Shown one piece after another: positions 42,571 through 44,837 of a stretch of DNA of 64,000 bases (positions are counted from its first letter, which is position 1; the number at the start of each line of letters is the position of its first letter). The DNA comes from Acidihalobacter yilgarnensis. Its GTDB lineage: Bacteria > Pseudomonadota > Gammaproteobacteria > DSM-5130 > Acidihalobacteraceae. The notes under the pieces were generated by a model, which saw only the letters and a program-made list of their open reading frames with translations, was not told the DNA's origin and searched no databases. The DNA lies in contig NZ_CP017415.1 in the NCBI RefSeq assembly GCF_001753245.1, positions 1,206,501 through 1,270,500 of the forward strand, in the 5' to 3' direction. The position numbers and the translations under genes are program-made.

Positions 42571-43005
42571 TTACCGCCTGCCCAGGCGCCTCGCGTCGCG
42601 CGCGACCTGGAGCAGGGCCAAGGCACGAATCAGTTCCGCGTGAGCCAGTTGCTTGTCGTAGGGCAGTCGAGCCCGTTCGTCCAGGCTGCGTGCGTGTTTG
42701 ACCGCTTCCTCAGCGGCGCGGGCGTCGATATCCTTTCCGCGTAAGGCGGTGTCGGCGAGTACGGTCACTTGGGTCGGCTGCACTTCCAGGTAGCCACCTT
42801 CGAGATAGAGATATTGCCAAGCGCCGTCGGTCAAATAGCGTGCCTCGCCGGGCATCAGTCGGGCGAGCACGGGCGTGTGCCCGGGCAGGACGCACATTTC
42901 GCCGCCTTCGGCGGGCAAGACGACGCGCTCGACGGTGCCAAGGAAGAGGCTGTCCTGAGCGGTAACGATGCTGAGCGTGATGTGTTTGCGGGTGTTTTCG
43001 TTCAT
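42571..43005 (-). CDS. Stand-alone F1 ATP synthase epsilon subunit-like protein
   Basis: A 144-residue protein with the full AtpC pattern: an N-terminal beta sandwich (LSIVTAQDSLFLGTVERVVL, GEMCVLPGHTPVLARLMPGE, YLEGGYLEVQPTQVTVLAD) and a C-terminal helical hairpin. In ATP synthase this subunit couples and inhibits the motor. Here no other atp gene is nearby. Instead its ATG overlaps the stop of a cytidylate-kinase-like gene (ATGA), so the two are translated together. It could be a displaced or extra epsilon subunit, or a sensor reused in another role. Whether the genome also has an atpC in an atp operon cannot be seen. Confidence 0.85.
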   Translation of the reverse strand: MNENTRKHITLSIVTAQDSLFLGTVERVVLPAEGGEMCVLPGHTPVLARLMPGEARYLTDGAWQYLYLEGGYLEVQPTQVTVLADTALRGKDIDARAAEEAVKHARSLDERARLPYDKQLAHAELIRALALLQVARDARRLGRR

Positions 43006-43673
43006 TGCTGGGTGTGGTCGGGGCGATGTGCGTGCAGGCCTGCGACGATGACGTCCACGATGCGTTCGAATGCATCCATGCGGTCGGTGTTGACGATGAG
43101 GTCGAAGTCGTCGAATTCGTCTCGTGTGCGCCCGAAATGATGTTTCAGATAGGTTCGCCTGTCGACCTCGATACGACGCCACTGGCGTTCGGCTGCGTGG
43201 TGATCCAGATTTTCGCGCTGTGCCAGGCGCGCGATGCAGGTTGCCGGCGAGGCGCGCAGATAGACGCGGTACATGTCGGGGATGCTGGCGATGAGATGTA
43301 CGCCGCGCCCGAGTATCACGCCGCCGTGTCGGGCGATGGCGAGGACCACTTCGACCAGAGCCTTGGCGTATTCGTCGGTCGAGGGAATGTTGCCGTAGCC
43401 GTGAAGTAGCCGCGAGACCAGCCCTGGTGGCGCCGATTCGTCCAGTCGGCGCATTAAGGCCGGATCGCCCTCGATCTGTTCAATAATGCCGTCGATGATG
43501 GCGCGGTCATATAAGGGCACGCCGATGCGCGCGGCGAGCAGCGGGGCGATTTCGCCGGCGCCGGCACCGTAATCGCGGCTGATCGCGACGAGCGGACCTT
43601 TGTGCGTGCCTTCGGGTGTGCCGCTTTCGTGCAACAGCGTGAGTAGATAGCGTTCCAGGGCGCTGCGTGACAT
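43002..43673 (-). CDS. Cytidylate kinase-like protein
   Basis: A 223-residue protein resembling the cytidylate-kinase-like family (PF13189). The N-terminal loop VAISRDYGAGAGEIAPLLA with GVPLYDRAII is the family hallmark. The glycine-rich loop reads GAGAGE, without the basic residue of the usual GSGGRE form, so nucleotide phosphorylation is uncertain. GVILGRGVHLI and a C-terminal DLIVNTD follow. ATG at complement 43671-43673 has GGAG upstream. It is translationally coupled to the epsilon-like gene and divergent from a DUF389 gene across a tandem repeat. Confidence 0.75.
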   Translation of the reverse strand: MSRSALERYLLTLLHESGTPEGTHKGPLVAISRDYGAGAGEIAPLLAARIGVPLYDRAIIDGIIEQIEGDPALMRRLDESAPPGLVSRLLHGYGNIPSTDEYAKALVEVVLAIARHGGVILGRGVHLIASIPDMYRVYLRASPATCIARLAQRENLDHHAAERQWRRIEVDRRTYLKHHFGRTRDEFDDFDLIVNTDRMDAFERIVDVIVAGLHAHRPDHTQQ

Positions 43674-43850: not shown

Positions 43851-44837
43851 ATGAAAATCATCGAGGTCGTCGCGGAGGCGAGCAGCCGCGATACGGTGTC
43901 CGCGATCGGAGAGAAGATCGAGGCGCGCGATTTCCGTAGCGGGACGGTTGACGATGACGGCCGGCAATTCATGCGCCTGCTGGTTGCCGATGACAAGGTC
44001 CAGCACGCCTTGGATTTGCTGCAAAACGTACTTGGCGTGCAGCAGGGCGCACACATTGTCGTGCTGTCCGTCGAGGTGGCGCTGCCCCGGCAGAACGAGG
44101 CGGAAAGCCAGCAGGAGGATGCCGCGATGGCGATTCGCGAATCTCTGTATGCGAGCGTGGAACGGGATACGCGCCTGGGCGCGAACTACGTCGTGCTCGT
44201 GTTGCTGTCGACCGTGGTCGCAGGTATCGGGATGATCGAAGACAACGTCAGCGCGATCATCGGCGCGATGGTGATCGCGCCCTTGCTGGGGCCGAATCTA
44301 GCCTTTGGTTTGAGCACTGCACTGGGCGATCTTGGCCTGATGCGCAAGGCGGTGGGCAGTCTGTTGGTGGGCGTTACGCTGGCCGTGATGGCATCCGCCA
44401 TCGTGGGTGCCTTTGTACCGCACGGACTCCTTGGCAGCCATGAGCTACTGGCGCGCACCACTACTGGCTACGATACCGTGGCATTGGCATTGGCTTCCGG
44501 TGCCGCCGCGGCCTTGTCGTTGACCACGGGGCTTTCCAGCGTGCTGGTCGGTGTGATGGTCGCAGTGGCTCTGTTGCCGCCTGCTGCCGCTTTGGGCCTC
44601 TTCCTCGGCGGAGGTGACCTATCGAGCGCCGGGGGGGCCGGCTTGCTGCTGGCGGTGAATATCGTGTGCGTGAACCTCGCCAGCAAGATTGTATTCCTAC
44701 TCAAGGGCGTTCGGCCTCGAACCTGGGTGGATAAGGCACGCGCGCGTCGTGCCACCGCGATCTATCTTGCCATGTGGCTGGCGACGCTCGGGGTGCTGTT
44801 GCTGGCGATCTACTTGCGACGTGCATTGGGGGGCTGA
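43851..44837 (+). CDS. DUF389 family membrane protein
   Basis: A 328-residue protein resembling the TIGR00341/DUF389 family of unknown function. The soluble N-terminal domain of about 85 residues (KIIEVVAEASSRDTVSAIGE) is followed by about seven helices, including GANYVVLVLLSTVVAGIGM and the conserved GAMVIAPLLGPNLAFGLSTAL. ATG 43851 is preceded by GGGGAGG. Alone on its strand after the divergent repeat region. Confidence 0.8.
   Translation: MKIIEVVAEASSRDTVSAIGEKIEARDFRSGTVDDDGRQFMRLLVADDKVQHALDLLQNVLGVQQGAHIVVLSVEVALPRQNEAESQQEDAAMAIRESLYASVERDTRLGANYVVLVLLSTVVAGIGMIEDNVSAIIGAMVIAPLLGPNLAFGLSTALGDLGLMRKAVGSLLVGVTLAVMASAIVGAFVPHGLLGSHELLARTTTGYDTVALALASGAAAALSLTTGLSSVLVGVMVAVALLPPAAALGLFLGGGDLSSAGGAGLLLAVNIVCVNLASKIVFLLKGVRPRTWVDKARARRATAIYLAMWLATLGVLLLAIYLRRALGG

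Follow-up and report, generated by a model that had tools for sequence, protein, structure and literature searches.

A conserved gene pair of an ATP-synthase epsilon paralog and a cytidylate-kinase-like protein as a possible energy-linked regulatory module outside the ATP synthase

The window, that is the whole stretch of 64,000 nucleotides of Acidihalobacter yilgarnensis DNA that was analysed, carries a second ATP-synthase epsilon gene directly downstream of a cytidylate-kinase-like gene. The two genes are adjacent in at least 38 genomes from five gammaproteobacterial families, which places the pair far beyond chance. Their conservation and their association with phosphoenolpyruvate (PEP) enzymes point to an as yet undescribed module for energy-linked regulation outside the ATP synthase. 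Both parts belong to known families; the combination, the epsilon clade and the genomic context appear, to us, to be new. The limited open-access literature that was searched yielded no description of the pair or of a function for PF13189, in line with the initial annotation, which knew of no such system; a prior mention is possible. The features of the pair are as follows.

42571..43005, minus strand: ATP-synthase epsilon-like gene, 144 aa, above the PF02823 and TIGR01216 cut-offs
43002..43673, minus strand: cytidylate-kinase-like gene (PF13189), 223 aa, the upstream gene of the pair
43002..43005, minus strand: ATGA overlap of the kinase-like stop and the epsilon-like start, read from the sequence

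The epsilon-like protein gives a single match to PF02823 (88.3 bits, cut-off 27) and scores 95.9 bits against TIGR01216 (cut-off 67.25), and thus qualifies as AtpC by sequence. The kinase-like protein matches PF13189 with 117.5 bits (gathering score 28), and its paired homologues score 121-145 bits. The initial annotation had reported a full-length AtpC-like gene outside any atp operon, sharing an ATGA with the kinase-like gene. Both observations hold: no atp gene lies nearby, and the overlap falls exactly where it was placed. This overlap suggests that the two genes are translationally coupled. A comparison with the same-genus genome G001 (Nei-Gojobori) gave dN/dS values of 0.083 for the epsilon gene and 0.187 for the kinase-like gene; both genes of the window pair are under purifying selection. 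Neither protein matched the anti-phage defence models of PADLOC. A gene for a DUF389/TIGR00341 membrane protein (window 43851-44837) is divergent from the pair, and the same layout is seen in both same-genus genomes.

The window genome consists of one contig of 3.57 Mb. Its canonical epsilon gene is located at C1:3551675-3552067, within an intact atpA-atpG-atpD-atpC-glmU-glmS region, and its product shares 42% identity with the window paralog. Because the main atp operon keeps its own atpC, the window gene is a second epsilon and not a relocated one. The initial annotation had proposed to look for another atpC, and would have regarded the gene as a simple relocated subunit if the main operon lacked atpC and no linkage was conserved; neither holds, and a relocated single atpC is rejected. 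The window gene is not in an F1-gene neighbourhood of the atpD-atpC type, which is where the canonical atpC is found. A canonical atpC was likewise always present in the genomes checked for the pair-type epsilon. The alternate F1Fo operon was also considered. Like the epsilon of the sodium N-ATPase or alternate F1Fo enzyme (TIGR03166), the window gene is the second epsilon gene of its genome, but the window locus has no other F1Fo subunit and the protein scores 29.4 bits against a TIGR03166 cut-off of 100.1; this candidate is rejected as well. Isolated second atpC copies occur in other gammaproteobacteria in unrelated contexts, without a PF13189 neighbour and outside the pair clade (L168:5543-6004, L169:5530-6048, L170:5781-6194, L171:4952-5389, L173:4925-5428 and L088:6769-7194, the last flanked by a larB-like gene and polA). 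In G306 (L174:4580-5743), the main atp operon contains a tandem atpC pair with a short atpD-like fragment in between, as if the atpD-atpC end had been duplicated.

We looked for the same pair in other genomes, as the initial annotation had advised, and found it in three genomes of family f1, seven of f126, 26 of f137 and one each of f107 and f132. Both same-genus genomes, G001 and G002, carry it. Of 369 genomes sampled evenly across the class, 13 contain a strong kinase match (E below 1e-60). The epsilon gene is immediately downstream in six of these (G000, G001, G129, G135, G140 and G324), a seventh (G019) has both genes within one gene run, and the remaining six have no epsilon gene nearby. 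The kinase is present in 7 of 20 genomes of the family of G129, with epsilon next to it in 7/7, and in 27 of 201 genomes of the order of G140, all within f137, with epsilon next to it in 26/27. Genomes from the phylum's other classes commonly carry PF13189 genes, often several each; at 28 additional loci inspected in these classes, no epsilon gene adjoins the kinase gene. A scan of genome contigs with the kinase protein gave no match, and one with the epsilon protein retrieved one Acidihalobacter MAG and an unrelated verrucomicrobial atpC. Among 13 junctions inspected, nine have a 4-bp overlap (NTGA) and the rest have gaps of 1-9 nt. The remaining neighbours vary from genus to genus, which makes the pair the unit that is conserved. 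The kinase gene of G003 (L047) has decayed to roughly 45 C-terminal codons, with a stop that overlaps the start of epsilon, and in G795 (L244) an N-terminal remnant of epsilon lies between the kinase gene and the gene for pyruvate phosphate dikinase (PPDK). These remnants indicate that the kinase-epsilon order was ancestral in both lineages. Two genomes have epsilon but no intact kinase and another has the kinase but no epsilon, so neither gene is strictly dependent on the other. The pair of G324 has a divergent neighbour that encodes a putative CBS-DUF294 nucleotidyltransferase (L076:8999-10438), and in G345 (L074:1757-8518) a PF13189 gene without epsilon lies just past atpG-atpD-atpC-glmU-glmS on the opposite strand. 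PF13189 genes adjoin mfd, the gene for the transcription-repair coupling factor, in two genera from a different class of the phylum (L178:7246-11724 and L179:2752-7925), with two in tandem at L179.

In a tree of 78 epsilons, the 11 paired epsilons and those of G003 and G004, two relatives without the kinase, form one clade (support 99/97) that is separate from canonical AtpC and from the other stray atpC copies. A larger tree with the f137 members places 38 rows in one clade (SH-aLRT 93). The G135 and G019 epsilons are not in the clade, and an AU test did not reject a single clade of all 15 (p 0.54). We compared residues between 38 clade members and 55 canonical AtpC proteins. The last C-terminal helix of the clade carries R118 (34/38), D119 (33/38) and L129 (35/38), each found in 0/55 canonical proteins, together with K or R at position 127 in 37/38, where canonical proteins mostly have E or Q. 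Canonical near-invariants mostly lost in the clade are S9, A10, E11, P73, T82, A83, A86, D88 and A115; most clade members also differ at several positions that are invariant among the canonical epsilons (55/55). Core positions G23, G35, H43, G53, G70, G71, E74, L83, D85 and R89 are identical in 38/38 members, and the conserved β-sandwich residues of canonical AtpC (G23, G35, H43, G53, GG70-71, E74 and R89) are among those kept throughout. The AlphaFold model of the window epsilon (pLDDT 93) comprises a β-sandwich and a two-helix C-terminal domain, and its nearest structure is E. coli epsilon (1aqt, TM 0.88/0.94, rmsd 1.1). The structure search also turned up PDB entry 9a4b, an AbrB-AtpE model. 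The window type thus shares with the F1Fo epsilon (AtpC; PF02823, TIGR01216; 1aqt, 2e5y) its full-length two-domain fold and core β-sandwich residues, and differs from it by its separate clade, its R118-D119/K127/L129 helix signature and its location away from atp operons, in a coupled pair with a PF13189 gene. ATP-sensing epsilons bind ATP through an I(L)DxxRA motif (PMC9317440). The arginine position of this motif is alanine in 13/13 clade members first compared and glutamate in the canonical AtpC of the window genome; the window epsilon thus lacks the ATP-sensing motif, and the canonical AtpC lacks its arginine.

The model of the kinase-like protein is of moderate quality (pLDDT 82.7). Its best matches are the two PF13189-type structures 3hdt and 3fdi, followed by CMP kinases. 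PF13189 is the only family matched; there is no match to PF03618, and the score against the (d)CMP kinase equivalog TIGR02173 is 28.9 bits for a cut-off of 102.1. Alignment with the CMP-kinase P-loop places the Walker-A lysine position at residue 39 of the window protein; 53/53 aligned relatives have G, S or A at this position and 0/53 have lysine. The initial annotation had remarked that the P-loop lacks the usual basic residue. The lysine is indeed absent, but this is not special to the window protein and describes the whole PF13189 group sampled. The relatives conserve arginines 33, 123, 136, 149 and 172 and a DLxxNTD motif, which suggests that a phosphate-ligand site may be retained. The protein resembles the Cytidylate_kin2 family (PF13189; 3hdt, 3fdi) in its fold, GRG(A/V)(H/N) and DLxxNTD motifs and degenerate P-loop, whereas most sampled relatives outside the pair families have no epsilon gene. 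In the kinase tree, the window copy has a long branch.

In family f137, a PPDK gene (TIGR01828, 1275 bits) lies within 1.5 kb downstream of the kinase gene on the same strand at 21 of 27 loci. In G019 (L052:4551-14336), genes for class I fructose-bisphosphate aldolase (FBA), epsilon, PEP synthase, PorGAB, a GltD-like protein and the PF13189 kinase follow one another on one strand, and are followed by Mrp-type antiporter genes (named by eye). An ATP-type phosphofructokinase (PFK) gene is upstream of epsilon in G003 and G004, and the G003 run before the kinase remnant and epsilon reads PFK-porG-porA-porB-gltD-like. The linkage of epsilon and its partner is therefore with enzymes of carbon metabolism near pyruvate and PEP, not with atp genes. 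The PPDK linkage is largely confined to f137, those with PEP synthase, PFK and pyruvate oxidoreductase (POR) are seen in single genomes, and the window pair is adjacent to neither PPDK nor PEP synthase. Two adjacent genes lie downstream of PPDK in two f137 genomes (L241:10544-12466 and L242:10812-12731); the two L241 genes each have a PF09176 match (methylene-tetrahydromethanopterin dehydrogenase N-terminal domain), and the L242 genes look similar.

Epsilon is a rotor subunit that inhibits ATP hydrolysis. Bacterial epsilon binds ATP in some species, and what it senses is a long-noted ambiguity. The explanation that we favour, tentatively, is that the pair forms a stand-alone, two-protein epsilon-kinase regulatory module for PEP-forming and central carbon metabolism. 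We draw this from the adjacency of the genes, their coupled junctions, the distinct epsilon clade and its C-terminal signature, the PPDK and PEP-synthase context and the decay of the pair in both directions. The paralog would no longer be a standard F1 subunit, having presumably lost assembly into F1, and would be translated together with a catalytically degenerate protein of nucleotide-kinase fold, to which it most likely binds. The complex would most likely respond to the energy state of the cell through a putative ligand, and probably regulate PPDK, PEP synthase and neighbouring central-carbon enzymes. That an ATP-synthase subunit and a degenerate kinase-fold partner act as an F1-independent energy-sensing switch, specifically at the PPDK/PEP-synthase node between pyruvate and PEP, is a conceivable extension that we put forward with more reserve. 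If true, this would be a kind of regulation with no described precedent; the epsilon fold would have found a second use, as a regulator apart from the rotary motor, and PF13189, a widespread family, would gain its first clear genetic partner. The question of epsilon sensing and ATP binding could then be tested on two soluble proteins away from F1.

The main rival is an alternative F1 epsilon isoform, in which the paralog would, in certain conditions, take the place of AtpC at gamma and the c-ring and alter the inhibition of ATP hydrolysis, the kinase-like partner controlling its level or delivery. The predicted complete epsilon fold and the invariance of the β-sandwich residues agree with this idea; since those residues are kept in 38/38 members, docking onto F1 may still be possible. 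The divergence of the clade includes the C-terminal helix, the part of canonical epsilons that inhibits F1, and a canonical atpC accompanies the paralog in every genome checked. However, the paralog is linked to the kinase and to carbon-metabolism genes instead of atp genes, it shares an operon with PPDK or PEP synthase, and most of its clade has changed several residues that are invariant in the 55 canonical epsilons compared. On this balance, we consider an isoform of the motor unlikely, if worth serious attention.

An enzyme with an accessory subunit appears rather improbable to us. Here the PF13189 protein would be an active phosphotransferase, such as a nucleoside-monophosphate kinase that recycles AMP, and epsilon would be its subunit, with a structural or an allosteric role. 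Both PPDK and PEP synthase produce AMP, the modelled fold is CMP-kinase-like, and R123, R136, R149 and R172 could hold phosphates. Against this stand the Walker-A lysine, missing from every relative aligned, the low TIGR02173 score, and the literature searched, a limited open-access set in which no PF13189 enzyme activity was found. The existence of isolated atpC paralogs elsewhere (G159, G282, G313, G174, G286 and G072) could suggest a relic, an atpC copy that came by chance to lie beside a kinase gene and has no special function. Conservation in 38 genomes, a single supported clade, low dN/dS and conserved coupling contradict such a chance adjacency, which is very improbable and is rejected.

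Pyruvate dikinases have a dedicated small regulator with an unusual P-loop, PF03618 (PDRP/PpsR). As a regulatory module for these enzymes, the pair would be a functional parallel to PF03618, built from proteins of other families. The PF03618 gene of the window genome is located at C1:3487062-3487829, apart from the pair. PF03618 is missing from six f137 pair carriers (G140, G779, G783, G799, G807 and G829) and is present in all pair genomes tested outside f137. A replacement of this PPDK regulator by the pair is thus unsupported: the two co-occur in most genomes, including the window genome, and the pair is not simply a PF03618 substitute. Possibly the pair acts on PPDK and PF03618 on PEP synthase.
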